Assembly (NCBI GenBank): GCA_947172415.1
Contig: OX359194.1
Location: 6,516,401-6,580,400, forward strand
DNA: 64,000 bases
Source: Chondrosia reniformis
Taxonomy: Eukaryota; Porifera; Demospongiae; Chondrillida; Chondrillidae
Direction: 5' to 3'
Translations under genes and position numbers: made by a program
Shown here: positions 5,450 through 52,485 of the stretch, piece after piece
How the letters are laid out: the number at the start of each line of letters is the position of its first letter
Numbering within the stretch: position 1 is the first letter of the stretch
Notes under the pieces: generated by a model
What the model was told of the DNA's origin: nothing
What the model saw: the letters and a program-made list of their open reading frames with translations, nothing else
Databases searched by the model: none

Positions 5450-8400
5450 ATGGCTACCTGTGTAAATTGCATAAGCTTGCAATTGGTGTTCCTTCTACTA
5501 GTGTTCTGCCCCTACTTGGGTTCTGCATCTTCTCTCTTAAGAGATGGTAACATAAGAGTAGTAGGACTACCTCCTCCAGTGCCCAACGAAGGCTGTAAGG
5601 TGCCTCCTGACCAATGGATGACACAACAGCTGGATCACTTTGACCACACTAACATGCAAGTTAGTGATATTGTGTGCTTATCTGCATGTGCGATATGCAT
5701 GTCATAATGCAATGATTGTACTATAGGTAGAAACTATGTGTCGTTTCGATTGATGGACAATTAGTATGCTAATATATAAACTTGCAATGTACGTTTAGAC
5801 AAGTATATTATATGTATTATTATATTTCAGTTAAATGATAGCTTGCATGATAGCCTTTATTTCTGTATAATTTCAAAAGTTCCAAATCCACTGAAAGTAT
5901 ACTTTGAAGTAAGTGAAAAGAGAAATATATCATTATCTTTCCATAGCTACGTAGGTACTATTTAGACTTGAACAAAAACCACTGACTTTATGAATTTAGG
6001 TTGCTAATACATATCTTTTATACCTCTCCCATGGTAGACATGGCAACAGCGCTACTTTGTGAATGCCTCTCACTGGAACAAAGCTGGTGGACCAGTTTTC
6101 CTGATGATTGGAGGAGAAGGGAAAGCTGATCCATCCTGGCTTGCAGCTGACACAGAAATTATGATTAATGCTGTGAAGTACAGAGCTCTGGTTGTGTTCT
6201 TAGAGCACAGGTTAGTTCCTGTAAGTGGGTGCCTATAAGTGGGTGCCTGTAAGTGGGTGCCTGTATGTGGGTGCCTGTAAGTGGGTGCCTGTAAGTGGGT
6301 GCCTGTATGTGGGTGCCTATAAATGTACTACATGTTATATATAGTGTTTCCTGACACATATTACTATACAATAGGTTCTATGGAGAGAGTCACCCAACTA
6401 GTGACACTTCTGTGGATAATCTAAAGTACCTTTCAAGTCAGCAAGGTCTGGCAGACCTTGCTGAATTTCATGCCTTTATCACAAACAAGTTTAATTTGAC
6501 AGCTGCTAACAAGTGGATCTGCTTTGGAGGGTCCTACCCAGGTATATGTGCATGTACACACACGGACACACACACACATGTAGATGTATTGGGTTTGTAA
6601 AATGATCATTCTGTGAATTTTAGTCAATTTCCTGTTAATCACTTGATTCAGTAGCTTGAAATAGTATTCTTCTGTGTCTATGTCTTAGCTGTCTGCAGTC
6701 TAATTTGGGATATTCCCAATTCCTCCCCTTCCATTCAGCTGTGTAATACTTTGTAGGGCTTCTGTATATTCAGAATGTACTTATTATTGTTAACTCATAA
6801 CTTCAGAATTCTTCTACAATTTAAATAGTTTAAATGGCTAGACATCTGTATATATGACTATACGTTATCTAAAGCTTGCTATGTAACTACATTTTTTGAA
6901 GCAAGCTGATGATCTTATATTTCCCACAATTACTTTATAGTTAGTCTGTCAGCCGAGTAATCTCCCTTTCCTTCACAGGTAGTCTGTCTCTCTCTTTCCT
7001 TCACAGGTAGTCTGTCAGCGTGGTTCCGTATCAAGTATCCCAACTTGGTTGCGGGTGCAGTTGCTACTAGTGCCCCGGTGGAGGCCAAACTCAACTTTGT
7101 CGAGTACCTTGAGGTAGTGAGAGACTCCCTTGCTACATCCAAGCAAGGAGAGGACTGTGTTAATGCTGTCAGTGAGGCCAACATTCAGCTCACAGCACTC
7201 CTAAAGGACAAATCAAGCTGGCCTCAAGTTGAAAAGCTATTCAAGTGAGACCTTCTCATAAAAGCACTCTCATTTAAGTACCTCATTTCCAAGATGAATT
7301 TCCATTCTCTCTCTCTCCAATATCCTTCACAGGGGCAGATCTAAAAATTTTTAAAAGGGGACTTGCTAAGTTATATATAGGAGTGTAATAGAAAAGGTTA
7401 ATTACAGGGTAAGGTCCTACAGAAAGAATAGTGTTAATACAAAGTCAAGATGAAGGTGCTACAGCACCCAGACTGACCCTCTAAATCTGCCACTGTTTCA
7501 CTCTATTCTTGGTGTACGTACCACTTTTTACAAGTTGACTTTACATTCTCTCTCTCTATCTGTTCAAGGCTAGACCCGCCTCTGGAGAACCAGAATGATG
7601 TCATGAACTTAGCCCAGACACTGGCAGGCAACTTTATGGAAATTGTGCAATACAATAAGGATAACACTGCCTTTGAGGTACAATTATCTACCTCTCCAAT
7701 ATTTAAGGGAGTACCTTTTAATCTTATGAAATCATTTTAATTTCAAATCATTTCAGATTTCAAATATAACACAATCTGCTCTCCTCGGCACATATGGTGG
7801 CAAGCCTCTGTTTACCACCTACTCTTATGTATCAGCTGTTCTGGTGTGATTATATGGCATAGCTGTGTTCAGTATCCTTCCATGTTATCAATCCACCCTT
7901 TATAGGGGCGTGTGTTGCCTGGTACAATAGCAGATTTGTGTAATATTATGACCAATGCTTCGATTGGTAAGGAAATTGATCGATATGCAGAAGTGAATAG
8001 TGCAGAACTGGCCTTTTTCAAAGAGCCTAGTTTGGATGTCAGTTACTCTGGTTACATCAGTGATATGAAAGAGACCAATTGGAGTGCCCCATTTGTCGCT
8101 GGAGGAGGTAAGACACTTGCCTGTTGGGACCCACATGTATGTACATGTATGTATGGTCGTTTTGCTTGAACTGGTAGGCTGAAGAGGCTAATTTTGCTTC
8201 CTTTTTATTTCATAAGACTTGTATACCTATAAAGTTTATATCACAAGTGCTAATTGTCTCTACTGCAGCACGTCAATGGGTGTTTCAGACTTGCTCACAG
8301 TTTGCATTTTACCAAACCAGTGACAGTAAAGATCAACCATTTGGCTCACTCTTTCCACTAAAGTTTTCTATCCAGCAGTGTATGGATATCTTTGGAGATC

Positions 8401-9681: not shown

Positions 9682-12600
9682 CTGTAATTCTCCCTACCTG
9701 TCTGTGCCTGTGCCTGTCTACTTATATAATTACCTATGTCATTGTATAAAATATCCTTCTGATATATATACAAGATACCAGTTAATCCTTTATGGTAAAC
9801 TCCCATGGTAGACATGGCAACAGCGCTACTTTGTGAATGCCTCTCACTGGATCAAAGCTGGTGGACCAGTTTTCCTGATGATTGGAGGAGAAGGAAGAGC
9901 TGATCCATCCTGGATTGCAGCTGACTCAGAAATTATGGTCAATGCTGATAAGTACAGAGCTCTGGTTGTGTTCATAGAACACAGGTTAGTGTCTGTACAT
10001 ATATGTGAGTTGCTATTCAAAGGGTACTGTTTTATTAGAGAATTGGCAATTTGTTGGTAATTAAGCACTGCTTACCTGTATTTCTAGTCAATATATGATT
10101 TTACCTAATCTTTAAAAAGTTTGTCTGATATAGAAAGTTTTAAAATTACACAGTTGACTATTCATTAGAACACTATTTTGATTCTTAGATGGTTACGTAT
10201 GTACACCTGCTAGATAATATTGTAAAATGACCGTATATGAAACAGTCTACTCAATCTATTCACAGACTTACAATATACAATATTCACTATATGAACCAGG
10301 CACACATGCTGAACAGACTAGAGTTTACATAGGCTAATGAGGTCAATAAAATTCCCTATTCCAAGTCACCAGTTTAACTGGAAAAATCCCCTTTCAAAGT
10401 CACGAGTTAACTCAAAGTTATGTTTACAAGTCATGAGTCCAACTCAAACAACACCTTACCAAGTCACGAGTCCAACTCAAACAACACCTTACCAAGTCAC
10501 GAGTCCAACTCAAACAACACCTTACCAAGTCACGAGTCCAACTCAAACAACACCTTACCAAGTCACGAGTCCAACTCAAACATCACCTTACCAAGTCATG
10601 AGTCCAACTCAAACATCACCTTACCAAGTCACGAGTCCAACTCAAACATCACCTTACCAAGTCACGAGTCCAACTCAAACATCACCTTACCAAGTCACGA
10701 GTCCAACTCAAACATCACCTTACCAAGTCACGAGTCCAACTCAAACAACACCTTACCAAGTCACGAGTCCAACTCAAACAACACCTTACCAAGTCACGAG
10801 TCCAACTCAAACAACACCTTACCAAGTCACGAGTCCAACTCAAACAACACCTTACCAAGTCACGAGTCCAACTCAAACATCACCTTACCAAGTCACGAGT
10901 CCAACTCAAACAACACCTTACCAAGTCACGAGTCCAACTCAAACATCACCTTACCAAATCACGAGTCCAACTCAAACATCACCTTACCAAGTCACGAGTC
11001 CAACTCAAACAACACCTTACCAAGTCACGAGTCCAACTCAAACAACACCTTACCAAGTCACGAGTCCAACTCAAACAACACCTTACCAAGTCACGAGTCC
11101 AACTCAAACATCACCTTACCAAATCACGAGTCCAACTCAAACATCACCTTACCAAGTCACGAGTCCAACTCAAACAACACCTTACCAAGTCACGAGTCCA
11201 ACTCAAACAACACCTTACCAAGTCACGAGTCCAACTCAAACAACACCTTACCAAGTCACGAGTCCAACTCAAACAACACCTTACCAAGTCACGAGTCCAA
11301 CTCAAACATCACCTTACCAAGTCACGAGTCCAACTCAAACATCACCTTACCAAGTCACGAGTCCAACTCAAACATCCAGTCATGAGTCCAATTCAAACAA
11401 CACCTTACCAAGTCACGAGTCCAACTCAAACATCACCTTACCAAGTCACGAGTCCAACTCAAACAACACCTTACCAAGTCACGAGTCCAACTCAAACATC
11501 ACCTTACCAAGTCACGAGTCCAACTCAAACAACACCTTACCAAGTCACGAGTCCAACTCAAACATCCAGTCATGAGTCCAATTCAAACAACACCTTACCA
11601 ACACCTTACCAAGAGGATTGATAAATTGAAGTTGTGTAGTGGTTTGTATATAACATGTTATAATGTTTCCTGACATGCATATGTACATCTTTTTACAATA
11701 GGTTCTATGGAGAAAGTCACCCAACTAGTGACACTTCTGTGGATAATCTAAAGTACCTTTCAAGTCAACAAGGTCTGGCAGACCTTGCTGAATTTCATGC
11801 CTTTATCACAAACAAGTTTAACTTGACAGCTGCTAACAAGTGGATCTGCTTTGGAGGGTCCTACCCAGGTATATGTGCATGTACACACTCACATGTACAC
11901 ACTCACATGCATACATGCCAAATGCACTCATTTATACACTTACTTGTTATGCCTAATTTATATCTGTTGCACTGTTTAACGTATTTATACTATTACAACA
12001 CGCCTTTACTACTTTATACACGTATACTGCATCACACAGCCTCATATATTGAAAACCGACTGTAAGTATGGTCCCGGAGTCGCTCTTTCCTTCACAGGTA
12101 GTCTCTCTCTCCCTTTCCTTCACAGGTAGTCTGTCAGCGTGGTTCCGTATCAAGTATCCCAACTTGGTTGCGGGTGCAGTTGCTACTAGTGCTCCAGTGG
12201 AGGCCAAACTCAACTTTGTCGAGTACCTTGAGGTAGTGAGAGACTCGCTTGCCACATCCAAACAAGGAGAGGACTGTGTTAATGCTGTCAGTGAGGCCAA
12301 TATTCAGCTCACAGCACTCCTAAAGGACAAATCAAGCTGGCCTCAAGTTGAAAAGCTATTCAAGTGAGACCTTCTCATAAAAGCACTCTTATTCAAGTAC
12401 CTCATTTCCAAGATGAATTTCCATTCTCCCTTTCCAATATCTTTCATTTTCTTCTCTCATTCCTCTTCCCATTTTATATACTAGCCTGACTTCAACTATA
12501 GAGAACCAGAACGATGTCATGAAACTAGCTGTAGCACTTGCTAGTAACTTTATGAATGTTGTACAAAGCAATAACTTGACAGATCCTTACACTATAAGAG

Positions 12601-21600: not shown

Positions 21601-24600
21601 GCCATAAACATGTAATACTTAGTCTTTCCTTATATGTATATAAATAAATGGCCTATATATAGTATAACATGCCTTTCTTAGGCTATATACGTACGTATAG
21701 TTATAGATACTATACTTATATCAGTATGTCCTTACATAGCCTCACAACTATAAGGATTCCGTGGCATGAGTGTGCATACCAATGTTAAATAGCACGTGTC
21801 AAGCAGTCTTGAGCTAATACTGTTCCTGTGTTGTGGAGTTTTGGGCTATTGCATCACTGAACTAAATGATATATACTGACCTTGGTTTGATGATAATGTA
21901 TGTATAGATATGGGTAACATAAACTATATCATTTCTTTAAAAGTATATATCATAATAGTGATAGATACTATGATACTATGGGGTACTTCCATACACATCT
22001 TGCTGAATAGGATTACATGGACCTTCAATAGTCTATATTGCATTGAATTATAAATTATGTTTACTCAATTAACTTTAAGAAGGTACGTATGTACGTATGT
22101 TGAATAAATTAGAATAATTAATATACTATTTATTATTTCACAGGTTTTGGAACCCCACGAGATGGCAAATCCTAAAGTTGATGATAAGAGTGTCATGACA
22201 TATGTGTCAATGTTTCCTGAGGCTCAGCTCAAAGAAGGTGCACCCTTAAGGACATCAAAATCTGCAGCTGATCCTAGTAAAGTAGTTGTCACTGGTCCAG
22301 GAATCAACGGAGAGGCACAGGAATGTGTTGAACAACCCCTTTGCTACACAATCGACACCACACAGGCAGGTGATGGAAAGCCGGAGGTGACTGTGGATGG
22401 ACCAGATGGCTGCAATAAGGATGTAGACATTCAGGAGACATCAGATGGCGTCTATCAAGCAAAATACACTCCTGATCTACCCGGTGATTACAAGGTCCAT
22501 GTAAACTACTGTGACACGGAAGTTCCTTCAAGTCCAGCCAATGTTCACGTAGCTGATCCTAGTAAAGTAGTTGTCACTGGTCCTGGAATCAATGGCGAGG
22601 CACAGGAATGTGTTGAACAACCCCTTTGCTACACAATCGACACCACACAGGCAGGTGATGGAAAGCCGGAGGTGACTGTGGATGGACCAGATGGCTGCAA
22701 TAAGGATGTAGACATTCAGGAGATATCAGATGGCGTCTATCAAGCAAAATACACTCCTGATCTACCCGGTGATTACAAGGTCCATGTAAACTATTGTGAC
22801 ATGGAAGTTCCTTCAAGTCCAGCCAATGTTCACATAGCTGATCCTAGTAAAGTAGTTGTCACTGGTCCAGGAATCAACGGAGAGGCACAGGAATGTGTTG
22901 AACAACCCCTTTGCTACACAATCGACACCACACAGGCAGGTGATGGAAAGCCGGAGGTGACTGTGGATGGACCAGATGGCTGCAATAAGGATGTAGACAT
23001 CGAGGAGACATCAGATGGCGTCTATCAAGCAAAATACACTCCTGATCTACCCGGTGATTACAAGGTCCATGTAAACTACTGTGACACGAAAGTTCCTTCA
23101 AGTCCAGCCAATGTTCACATAGCTGATCCTAGTAAAGTAGTTGTCACTGGTCCAGGAATCAACGGAGAGGCACAGGAATGTGTTGAACAACCGCTTTGCT
23201 ACACAATCGACACCACACAGGCAGGTGATGGAAAGCCGGAGGTGACTGTGGATGGACCAGATGGCTGCAATAAGGATGTAGACATTCAGGAGATATCAGA
23301 TGGCGTCTATCAAGCAAAATACACTCCTGATCTACCCGGTGATTACAAGGTCCATGTAAACTATTGTGACACGGAAGTTCCTTCAAGTCCAGCCAATGTT
23401 CACATAGCTGATCCTAGTAAAGTAGTTGTCACTGGTCCAGGAATCAATGGAGAGGCACAGGAATGTGTTGAACAACCGCTTTGCTACACAATCGACACCA
23501 CACAGGCAGGTGATGGAAAGCCGGAGGTGACTGTAGATGGACCAGATGGCTGCAATAAGGATGTAGACATTCAGGAGATATCAGATGGCGTCTATCAAGC
23601 AAAATACACTCCTGATCTACCCGGTGATTACAAGGTCCATGTAAACTACTGTGACATGGAAGTTCCTTCAAGTCCAGCCAATGTTCACGTAGCTGATCCT
23701 AGTAAAGTAGTTGTCACTGGTCCAGGAATCAATGGAGAGGCACAGGAATGTGTTGAACAACCGCTTTGCTACACAATCGACACCACACAGGCAGGTGATG
23801 GAAAGCCGGAGGTGACTGTGGATGGACCAGATGGCTGCAATAAGGATGTAGACATCGAGGAGACGTCAGATGGCGTCTATCAGGCAAAATACACTCCTGA
23901 TCTACCTGGTGATTACAAGGTCCATGTAAACTACTGTGACACGGAAGTTCCTTCAAGTCCAGCAAATGTTCACGTAGCGGATCCTAGTAAAGTGGTTGTC
24001 ACTGGTCCAGGAATCAATGATGAATCCTGTGAATGTGTAGAAAACCCATTGCTCTATGCCATTGACACATCGGGTGCTGGACCTGGTGATGTGAGGGTTA
24101 CTGTAGATGGACCAGATGGCAGTCAGGAATTAGAGGTAGTCGATACCGGTGATGACATGTATACCGCAGAATTTACACCAAAGGATCCAGGGCAATACCA
24201 AGTTCACATCAATTATAATGATAAGGAAGTTCCATCCAGCCCAGCCACTGTAGATGTAGTTGACCCTGGCAAAGTAATTATCTCAGGTGATATTGGTGCA
24301 TATGTCAAAGTTGATACACCAGCAAGATTTAATGTCAATGCCGTCAATGCTGGTAAAGGTGACATTAATGCCAAAGTACATGGTCCTAGTGACACAGATC
24401 TTGTTTGTGAGGATGTAGCTGATGGCAGCAAGAATTACACATTTACACCAAATGTGGTTGGAGACCACATCGTTACTGTTGATTTTGCAGACAAACCAGT
24501 GCCCAATTCTCCTTTTAGCATCAAAGCCTATGATCCTAGCAAGGTTGAAGTTACGGGATCTGGTATTACTGGTGATGGTGCCCGGGTGGGGCTTCCTGCA

Positions 24601-48951: not shown

Positions 48952-51900
48952 ATGGCGACCCACGAAGTAAGTCCGAAGTTTGGTAGAGAAGTGCGATTTT
49001 AAATTAATCAATATTAGAGAAAGGATAAAGTCAATTTTATAGTGCGCTTAATCTTCTGGTGTAGAGTAAGGTCGTTCAGAACCAACCGTATGATGAAACT
49101 GTCGATATAAGCGATCCAGAAGAGATTCCTAGTGTGCAGGCGAGCCCCAGAGTACCTGTAGGAGCTCCTCAGACGGAGGGAGAAGTAAGTTGTACAGATG
49201 ACACGTCTTTTATCCCAACAGGCTGCACCATTAGGGCTTCATACCTGTATAACATACACATAGGTTTCATGAGTTAGCTTAAGAAGAGGGAGGTATTGAG
49301 GCAGTTGTAACTCATTGGCAGAGCATCTGGTGGTGATACGTATGTATGCAATATTGTTTTATGAAACATGAGTGAGGGTAATAACAGCTCTTCTGGGTTC
49401 AATTTTCAGCAATTGTTTCTTTCATGTTTTTCTCTCTTCATTATGCTTGAGACCGATTAAAATTACTTGTGGTTTGATTATCACCTCAATTATTCATATG
49501 TAATGCTACTATATGTAGGTACAGCGGCAACGTGGAGATGACCACATAGGTATGTATGATTCGGAAGAGAGTGAAGGAGAGGAGCCCTCGGAGAGCGAAG
49601 AAGATGGTAGAACGCAAGGACCACTCGCAGGGTAAGACCCCCTCATCTATTAGGCTCACGTAGCCAGACCACTACTCCATGAATGTGGAGGTGAGATAGC
49701 GGTCTGGCTACACACACTACTGATCTATAATGACATATTAATTTTTTTGATTAAGCTTGTTTAGATGTGTGTTGACTACTTGATGTACATATCCCCTCCT
49801 TGCATTAGTGCTTATGATCCATCAGAGTTTGATCATTTGGTAGTCTCTCCTGAAGTGAAGGACCTATTCAAACATATAACTAGATTTCAGCCCCAAAGCA
49901 TTGAATTGGACAACAAATTGAAACCTTTCATTCCAGAATACATTCCTGCAATTGGAGATATTGACGCCTATCTTAAAGTACATATGTACCAATTCAAGCT
50001 GTCCATGTTAAATGTTAATGGTTTAGAGGACTACTTTATGCTTCCCTTTTTAATGTTTATCATAGGTCAGCAGGCCTGATGGTGTAGTCGACGATCTGGG
50101 GTCAAAGGTCCTGGATGAGCCATGTGCCAAGCAGTCAGACCCAACTGTGCTTGACCTCCACTTGAGAGCCATAGCCAAACAGACCAACGTGAAGCCAATG
50201 GTATGTGTACCATTAACTGTAACCCTATTACCAAAATTTGTTGAGTTGTTTGAAAAATGATGGATAGTTGTTTTGTATTGATCATATGAATACGGTCAAC
50301 TCTCGACTGTCCTCTGGTGTACTTTATAATGAGAGTTGACTGTAGTCAACAGATGGTTTGAGAAGAAAAGATGAATGTACACAGATGTGAGGAGTACTGA
50401 TGTGTATGTACAGGTTGTGAGGAGTACTGATGTATATGTACAGGTTGTGAGGAGTACTGATGTGTATGTACAGGTTGTGAGGAGTATTGATGTGTATGTA
50501 CAGGTTGTGAGGAGTACTGATGTGTATGTACAGGTTGTGAGGAGTACTGATGTATATGTACAGGTTGTGAGGAGTACTGATGTGTATGTACAGGTTGTGA
50601 GGAGTATTGATGTATATGTACAGGTTGTGAGGAGTACTGATGTGTATGTACAGGTTGTGAGGAGTACTGATGTGTATGTACAGGTTGTGAGGAGTACTGA
50701 TGTGTATGTACAGGTTGTGAGGAGTACTGATGTGTATGTACAGGTTGTGAGGAGTACTGATGTGTATGTACAGGTTGTGAGGAGTATTGATGTGTATGTA
50801 CAGGTTGTGAGGAGTACTGATGTATATGTACAGGTTGTGAGGAGTACTGATGTATATGTACAGGTTGTGAGGAGTACTGATGTGTATGTACAGGTTGTGA
50901 GGAGTACTGATGTGTATGTACAGGTTGTGAGGAGTACTGATGTGTATGTACAGGTTGTGAGGAGTACTGATGTGTATGTACAGGTTGTGAGGAGTACTGA
51001 TGTGTATGTACAGGTTGTGAGGAGTATTGATGTGTATGTACAGGTTGTGAGGAGTACTGATGTATATGTACAGGTTGTGAGGAGTACTGATGTATATGTA
51101 CAGGTTGTGAGGAGTACTGATGTGTATGTACAGGTTGTGAGGAGTACTGATGTGTATGTACATGTTGTGAGGAGTGTTGATGTGTATGTACATGTTGTGA
51201 GGAGTGTTGATGTGTATGTACAGGTTGTGAGGAGTATTGATGTATATGTACAGGTTGTGAGGAGTATTGATGATCCAGAGAAGAACCCAAAGGCTTTGGA
51301 CAACTGGATAGATAACATTGCTGAACTTCACAGACAAAAACCTGCACAAACAGTACATTATACAAAGTATGTGCATGTTACAGTCACCATGCATAGATCT
51401 ACAATGTAGTTCCCCAAGGTGTAACAGCTCCACTGATTATCTTTGAACTAGGACGATGCCTGAAATGGAGAGTCTCATGCAAGAATGGCCTCAGCAGTTT
51501 GAGGAGCTCCTCGGCACAGTTGGGCTGCCCAAAGCTGAACTGGACTGCAGCTTAACTGAATATGTGGACATTGCATGTGGTAAAGAGAAATGCATGACAA
51601 ACATACATACGTACATGCATACAGATGTACGTACAAATAATCTTGGTACATGTACGTATATACGTACTTATGTTTTGGATGACTGGGAGGTGATCACTGG
51701 TTGCCATTCAATAAGACTCAAGTCCCCCAACCAAGATAAGACTTTAGTCACTTGGTTGGTCAGGCATAATACGTAATTCCAGTATATACATACATTTGTA
51801 TTTCAGTATTGTGTATGTTATATATGAACTTTGTAACAGCATTATTAGATATTCCAGTCTACAAGAACCGTGTCCAGTCTCTACACGTGCTGTTTTCTCT

Positions 51901-52485
51901 TTACATGGAGTTTAAGAATTCACAAGTACGTACGTACATGATATGTGTAATTGTTAGCACTGAGAAGTGTGAGAAGTTGAACTTGCTACATCTACTTAGT
52001 GTATATGTGTGTGCAGACTCTTTATATGTACTCACAACCACTGAGCAGTATTTTAAATATTTAACAATTTTATAATATCTTTTGGATGGTTCATCTGTCG
52101 ATAATTTTGAGCATCTAAAGACACAGTTTTTTTGTTCTTCGTTCTGTCGGACGTTTCGACCCTGGGGGTCTTCTTCAGCGACTGAATGAGCCATCCAAAA
52201 GATAAGTTTGACACAGTCAGAAGAAATCCTTATTCTATTAACTTTATAATAATACATAGCTAGCAAATTATAGGCTGGAATCAAGAATGACGGATCATGA
52301 TACATACCTAAGAACCAGCTGCCTCTGTAATCTTTATGCAGTTGTCATAGTATTTACCCATATATACGTAGGTCATTCCTTTAATGTCTATAGCTGTATA
52401 TATGTATATATACTTGTAGCATTTTAAGAAGAGCAGTGCACACCAGAGAAAGCAAAGGAGTGACAGTGTTACTACAGAACCTTGA
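48952..52485 (+). CDS. IFT46: Intraflagellar transport protein 46
   Basis: Nine exons: 48952-48966, 49065-49184, 49519-49631, 49809-49977, 50066-50200, 51254-51366, 51452-51579, 51840-51925, 52420-52485; 314 residues against about 304 in human. IFT46 is a core subunit of the IFT-B complex that carries cargo along cilia. The match to the family runs through the whole C-terminal domain: AYDPSEFDHL, LDNKLKPFIPEYIPAIGDID, VLDEPCAKQSDPTVL, DDPEKNPKALDNWID, MQEWPQQFEELL, LLDIPVYKNRVQSLHVLFSL. The N-terminus is acidic (SEESEGEEPSESEED), as usual. Intron 5 contains 29 copies of a 30-bp unit that repeats the exon 6 acceptor and first codons; the model uses the last acceptor, which gives the conserved length. 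Confidence 0.95.
49312..49505 (+). mobile_element. tRNA-derived SINE (family S1) in IFT46 intron 2
   Basis: A-box-like TAACTCATTGGCAGAGC and B-box-like GGGTTCAATTTT, separated by an insertion, then the shared tail ACTTGTGGTTTGATTATC. Confidence 0.65.
49660..49712. repeat. Short imperfect hairpin in IFT46 intron 3
   Basis: GTAGCCAGACC is inverted as GGTCTGGCTAC about 30 bp further on, and the inner bases also pair in part. It is probably the remnant of a foldback element. Confidence 0.5.
50384..51253 (+). repeat. 30-bp minisatellite that repeats the IFT46 exon 6 acceptor
   Basis: Twenty-nine tandem units of GTTGTGAGGAGTACTGAT plus GTGTATGTACAG (with ATTG or TATATG variants) run directly into exon 6. 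The unit contains the TGTACAG acceptor and the sequence that opens the exon (codons V V R S I/T D). Since 30 is a multiple of three and no unit has a stop in that frame, the whole array is open and in frame with exon 6. Confidence 0.95.
52077..52203 (-). mobile_element. Small inverted-repeat element (MITE family M1), copy 2
   Basis: In IFT46 intron 8. Inverted ends (ATCTTTTGGATGGTTCAT against ATGAGCCATCCAAAAGAT, one mismatch). On the minus strand the core at 52178-52149 is CTGAAGAAGACCCCCAGGG then TCGAAACGTCC. Confidence 0.75.

Follow-up and report, generated by a model that had tools for sequence, protein, structure and literature searches.

The mirages of amphioxus are tandem duplications of minisatellite type that take in an intron-exon boundary; they have been described in Adh3 and the globin genes BflGb6 and BflGb9 (PMC3087553), with further cases in PGBD5 and troponin C (PMC3902484). 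AG/GT signals are present in many of the repeat units, those at the edges are not homogenised with the rest, the Adh3 units span 10-72 bp, and the mirages are reported as not disturbing splicing (PMC3087553, PMC3902484). A minisatellite at a splice boundary also occurs in human IFI6 (6-16), in which it gives several splice donors (Turri 1995, via PMC4526556), and tandem duplication carrying AG-GT sites underlies intron gain in the Rogers model, with cases in potato RdRp and in Drosophila (PMC3087553). A literature search of a limited library, judged by title and abstract, found no mirage case in a sponge. The array described here, which lies at an intron-exon boundary of a sponge gene, is, as judged from its sequence, most likely a mirage in a sponge.

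The IFT46 gene and its boundary array

The window, the whole 64,000-base stretch of DNA analysed (C6:6516401-6580400 of a searched genome of 117,379,552 bases in 15 contigs), contains on the plus strand, at 48952-52485, the gene for IFT46, identified from its translated model, PF12317 and PDB 8bd7_D. Its nine coding exons encode 314 residues: exons 1-5 lie at 48952-48966, 49065-49184, 49519-49631, 49809-49977 and 50066-50200, and exons 6-9 at 51254-51366, 51452-51579, 51840-51925 and 52420-52485, with the stop codon within the last. Exons 6-9 were read by hand from the sequence, then checked against Pfam and PDB. The end of exon 5 (50200) and the start of exon 6 (51254) are in phase 0, and joining them gives a complete IFT46 without insertion, which spans PF12317 (IFT46_B_C) from 1 to 211 of 211 positions (317 bits, E 6.6e-95) and bears out the gene's earlier identification from sequence. 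Among PDB entries, the model matches 8bd7_D, which we take to be a Chlamydomonas structure, with E 8.7e-75, and 4uzz with E 2.3e-31. Around residues 184/185, which flank the exon 5/6 junction, the model and 8bd7 align with two one-residue gaps and nothing more; extra residues are thus not needed to explain the protein. A family search of the genome returned five IFT46 matches, every one an exon of this gene.

Intron 5 (50201-51253, plus strand, GT...AG) measures 1053 bases, of which the minisatellite occupies 50384-51253, leaving 183 bases; the median predicted intron is 271 bases in the 264-kb sample (the window plus two 100-kb stretches), so the intron minus its array is of ordinary length here. 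The array comprises 29 exact 30-bp units, most commonly GTTGTGAGGAGTACTGATGTGTATGTACAG, each made of the first 19 bases of exon 6 plus 11 bases of the intron 5 end. Cut in the phase of exon 6, the units stop at 51253 and the exon copy GTTGTGAGGAGTATTGATG follows at 51254; exon 6 (51254-51366, plus strand), which opens with residues VVRSIDDPEKNPKALDNW, is the copy that aligns to homologous proteins. Tandem Repeats Finder reports the array at 50386-51272 with period 30, 29.6 copies, 97% matches and 0% indels. A repeat of this kind is far more than chance would produce, and two claims of the sequence-only reading, that an array sits at this junction and that its unit is the intron-exon boundary itself, are confirmed.

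The left flank GATGAATGTACACA (50370-50383, plus strand) is probably a decayed half-unit. GATG motifs occur at 50370, 50399 and 50429 at one end and at 51209, 51239 and 51269 at the other. Eight unit types are found among the 29 units, and units 2-29 vary in four columns (13, 14, 21 and 30). Changes in column 2 are confined to the first unit and those in columns 13 and 30 to three of the last four, placing edge units outside homogenisation as in mirages, with the limits that the last and the eighth unit are of one type and that a single base sets the first apart. Unit types recur at a lag of eight in 11 of 20 comparisons, other lags up to 15 reaching at most 0.39; together with the changes confined to the edges, this is as in minisatellite turnover. 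A genome search that skips simple repeats and very common words found no second copy of the array: the best match elsewhere (74%, covering bases 18-688 of the 983-base query) falls in the 16-bp array of an SRCR gene, and two further matches at 67% lie on C13.

Duplicate acceptors and the coding signal

Candidate in-frame exon starts recur every 30 bases from 50414 to 51254, and AG precedes 27 of these 29; the exceptions, 51164 and 51194, are preceded by CAT. The repeats thus carry splice signals, as those of mirages do, and the 26 duplicate acceptors (first exon bases 50414-51224, plus strand) place CAG before GTTGTG. The exon frame is free of stops from 50414 to 51253, as had been claimed, so that the repeat sites lie in frame with the exon, a feature of IFI6-type arrays. 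The statement that 29 in-frame copies exist holds for the units and fails for upstream acceptors, 26 of which are usable in frame. The frame check agrees that their use would lengthen IFT46 by multiples of ten residues, the possible insertions being 10, 40, 50 ... 280. Further upstream, the frame closes at once: the first unit begins GATGTG, and an exon from the AG at 50383-50384 would read ATG TGA, while the AG at 50351-50352 would give ATG GTT TGA, a stop within three codons.

Splice-site statistics come from the second version of a gene finder, which predicted 188 introns and recovered IFT46 exons 6-9 in neither its masked nor its unmasked decode; a minus-strand coding call at 50327-51358 in the unmasked decode is, in our view, an artefact. 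Local scores of the 27 in-frame acceptors are nearly equal (0.65 to 1.61, the last at 1.25), so the last acceptor has no advantage in its local sequence. It is weak by the standards of the sample, ranking 6th by percentile among 156 predicted acceptors with IFT46 left out of the model, at the 3rd percentile of 188 when IFT46 sites served among the model seeds, and at the 1st percentile in pyrimidine content; of the sample's 17,093 AGs, 20% score no worse. When 3' splice sites are duplicated and compete, the one closest to the donor can be preferred. The choice of acceptor must rest on position, on exon context and on selection for a working IFT46.

Branch points and RNA folding do not single out one acceptor. 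In units with ACT, TACTGAT, a branch point candidate, sits 13 bases before the end of the AG. Starts of CTNAY motifs in the 156 predicted acceptors peak at -50 to -41 (26 against 11.5 expected) and at -20 to -11 (24), where TACTGAT starts three times against 0.3 expected; ranking the array acceptors by branch point was dropped, the signal being too noisy. Against 20 dinucleotide shuffles, which destroy its repetition, the 870-base array gives the better fold (z -7.1), and 56 of 150 tiled unit shuffles of eight copies each fold as well, which led us to reject a special RNA structure. Local pairing does not set the last acceptor apart (mean unpaired 0.31, against 0.18 to 0.33 for the 26 upstream), and folding of four short stretches gave no clear result.

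The coding signal bears on what the array could add to the protein. Per 30 bp, the array has a score of -1.81 in the exon frame, against -5.32 and -5.00 in the other sense frames, whereas IFT46 exons 3 to 8 score 0.94, 1.46, 2.59, 0.5, 2.37 and -0.7 under the same model, a crude one whose training left out arrays and IFT46 and for which coding arrays were not scored as a positive control. The host frame thus lacks the signal of a coding minisatellite; that it is the best sense frame is expected of exon copies and equally of weak coding. Neither is openness distinctive. The 264-kb sample contains 34 arrays with at least 4.5 copies of a 10-100 bp unit, counting IFT46 and leaving out overlapping rows; in 22 of them the unit length is a multiple of three, or in 16 of 28 without six related 33-bp NACHT arrays. 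The IFT46 array itself has no stop in four of its six frames. Because such units are common, four frames are open and the score is non-coding, the open frame needs no selection; being in frame and open is not beyond chance.

These results weigh against constitutive coding, in which the first usable acceptor, 50414, would be used and IFT46 would be about 280 residues longer. The frame is indeed open over 840 bases, a NACHT-gene cluster provides minisatellites read as coding in the same genome, and the first version of the gene finder, since discarded because it drifted into tiny exons, took 50385-51366 as one exon. Yet an exon start at 50385 runs into a stop, the solved Chlamydomonas homologue has no insertion here, and the score is non-coding under the crude model; we consider this reading highly unlikely.

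The sequence-only reading had raised the possibility of a length-variable coding switch. On such a reading a sizeable share of transcripts would use upstream acceptors, adding 10, 40 ... 280 residues to IFT46, with differences between individuals as the array grows or shrinks. The 26 upstream acceptors are in frame, without stops and equal in local score, and the alignment of the 4uzz construct begins at query residue 195, ten past the junction, so that an insert would border the crystallised C-terminal portion, perhaps in a tolerant linker. The proposal is nevertheless unsupported: the array scores as non-coding, 3n units and open frames are common in the sampled arrays, the acceptors are weak and nearly identical, and the last join yields a collinear IFT46. 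One of the four variable columns in units 2-29 is synonymous in the exon frame, which at so few sites gives no sign of selection on the protein, and described mirages are reported to be spliced normally (PMC3087553, PMC3902484). On balance a switch is unlikely, and the odds are slimmer still for a heritable IFT46 length dial, in which 26 equal in-frame acceptors would add 10 to 280 residues and array length would differ between individuals.

The reading we favour, and hold with good though not full confidence, is that the array is an intronic mirage and that splicing connects 50200 mainly with the last acceptor, at 51254, to make ordinary IFT46. Against it stand the equal local acceptor scores, the weakness of the last acceptor, local pairing that does not mark it out, the advantage that a site close to the donor can have, the exon frame being the best-scoring sense frame, and the two gene finder versions, of which the discarded first ran 50385-51366 as one exon and the second leaves out exon 6. 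The minisatellite would have arisen as 30 bp across the intron 5/exon 6 boundary were duplicated in tandem; a slip between GATG motifs that flank the boundary at a spacing of about 30 bp may have set the unit length, and the eight-unit periodicity suggests later unequal exchange. The array would now be intronic and splicing dominated by the last acceptor, whose exon start at 51254 gives normal IFT46. The upstream acceptors may see occasional use, adding in-frame residues in rare isoforms longer by 10n; such errors, being in frame, would be milder than frameshifts.

Arrays at other splice junctions

Acceptors are duplicated elsewhere in this genome. In an S28-peptidase gene (PF05577, E 3e-78 over the first 232 residues scanned), an acceptor plus exon start is duplicated with a 28-bp period at 6941-7018 on the plus strand, with the authentic exon start at 7007 and an additional partial exon-start copy at 6941. 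A second paralog, recognised through its near-identical translation, likewise has a 28-bp acceptor duplication at 12083-12136 (plus strand; authentic exon start 12126). With 28-bp spacing, the copies are not in frame: in the first gene, the upstream copy leads to a frameshift and a stop (GSLSLSFLHR*), while the last acceptor leads to the open S28 frame, and in the second paralog the same spacing must shift the frame. We infer that the last acceptor is the one in use in both paralogs. Since the two keep the duplication, duplicated acceptors are tolerated in this genome. Unrelated arrays occupy the corresponding introns of the two genes, at 6218-6322 (14 bp x 7.5) and 10427-11601 (33 bp x 36.1).

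Together with IFT46 and the SRCR gene, whose array starts exactly at a donor, these paralogs could suggest that minisatellites are specially nucleated at splice junctions by a splicing mechanism or by AG-GT motifs. However, among the junctions predicted in the 264 kb, 186 of each kind lie far enough from the ends for testing (IFT46 exon 6 is absent from this set), and a nearby copy matching at least 24 of 30 bases occurs in 5 of 186 acceptor and 3 of 186 donor windows, seven of these eight being within arrays called coding by the unmasked decode. After a shift of 30-100 bases, 0 to 13 of 186 windows had such a copy. In the absence of enrichment in 264 kb, junction nucleation as a general rule was rejected, and special nucleation seems to us very improbable.

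The SRCR gene (PF00530, minus strand) carries its 16-bp array at about 1490-2199 of its sequence stretch, with units that repeat GTACATAC. In a cluster of related genes at C1:2000001-2100000, identified as NACHT (PF05729) from the single gene scanned, a 33-bp minisatellite with a unit of about GPSGTHPPSVG is read as coding in 7.5 to 38.5 copies; arrays lie at 23750, 38141, 47511, 69040, 76179 and 96146 of that stretch, and in all six a sense frame is open across the array. At 22266-24019 of the window, the gene finder reads as coding a 285-bp repeat of 6.2 copies that are 97% alike.

IFT46 intron 5 beside described boundary repeats

IFT46 intron 5 is a natural experiment in which the spliceosome chooses among 27 nearly identical acceptors, with ten-residue insertions as the readout. 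Public RNA-seq is listed for the likely species (ERR10177766; PMC12181767).

The Rogers model shares with this locus a tandem duplication that copies splice signals, but IFT46 gains no new intron; an existing one is lengthened. Closer is IFI6, a boundary minisatellite whose units can act as alternative splice sites; there, however, the repeat is on the donor side and mRNA species are reported, whereas the IFT46 array is on the acceptor side and its isoforms are putative. The closest likeness is to the amphioxus mirages: the IFT46 repeats span an intron-exon boundary, carry splice signals and differ in their edge units. They also depart from them, the sponge array having 29 units of 30 bp, a multiple of three, with an open frame, where BflGb6 has 3-6 units of 150-160 bp. 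The amphioxus cases show length change between haplotypes and in somatic cells, and splicing that is reported as undisturbed; the IFT46 array is known from the sequence of one haplotype. As a probable member of the mirage kind, the sponge IFT46 array would extend that kind beyond the lancelets.
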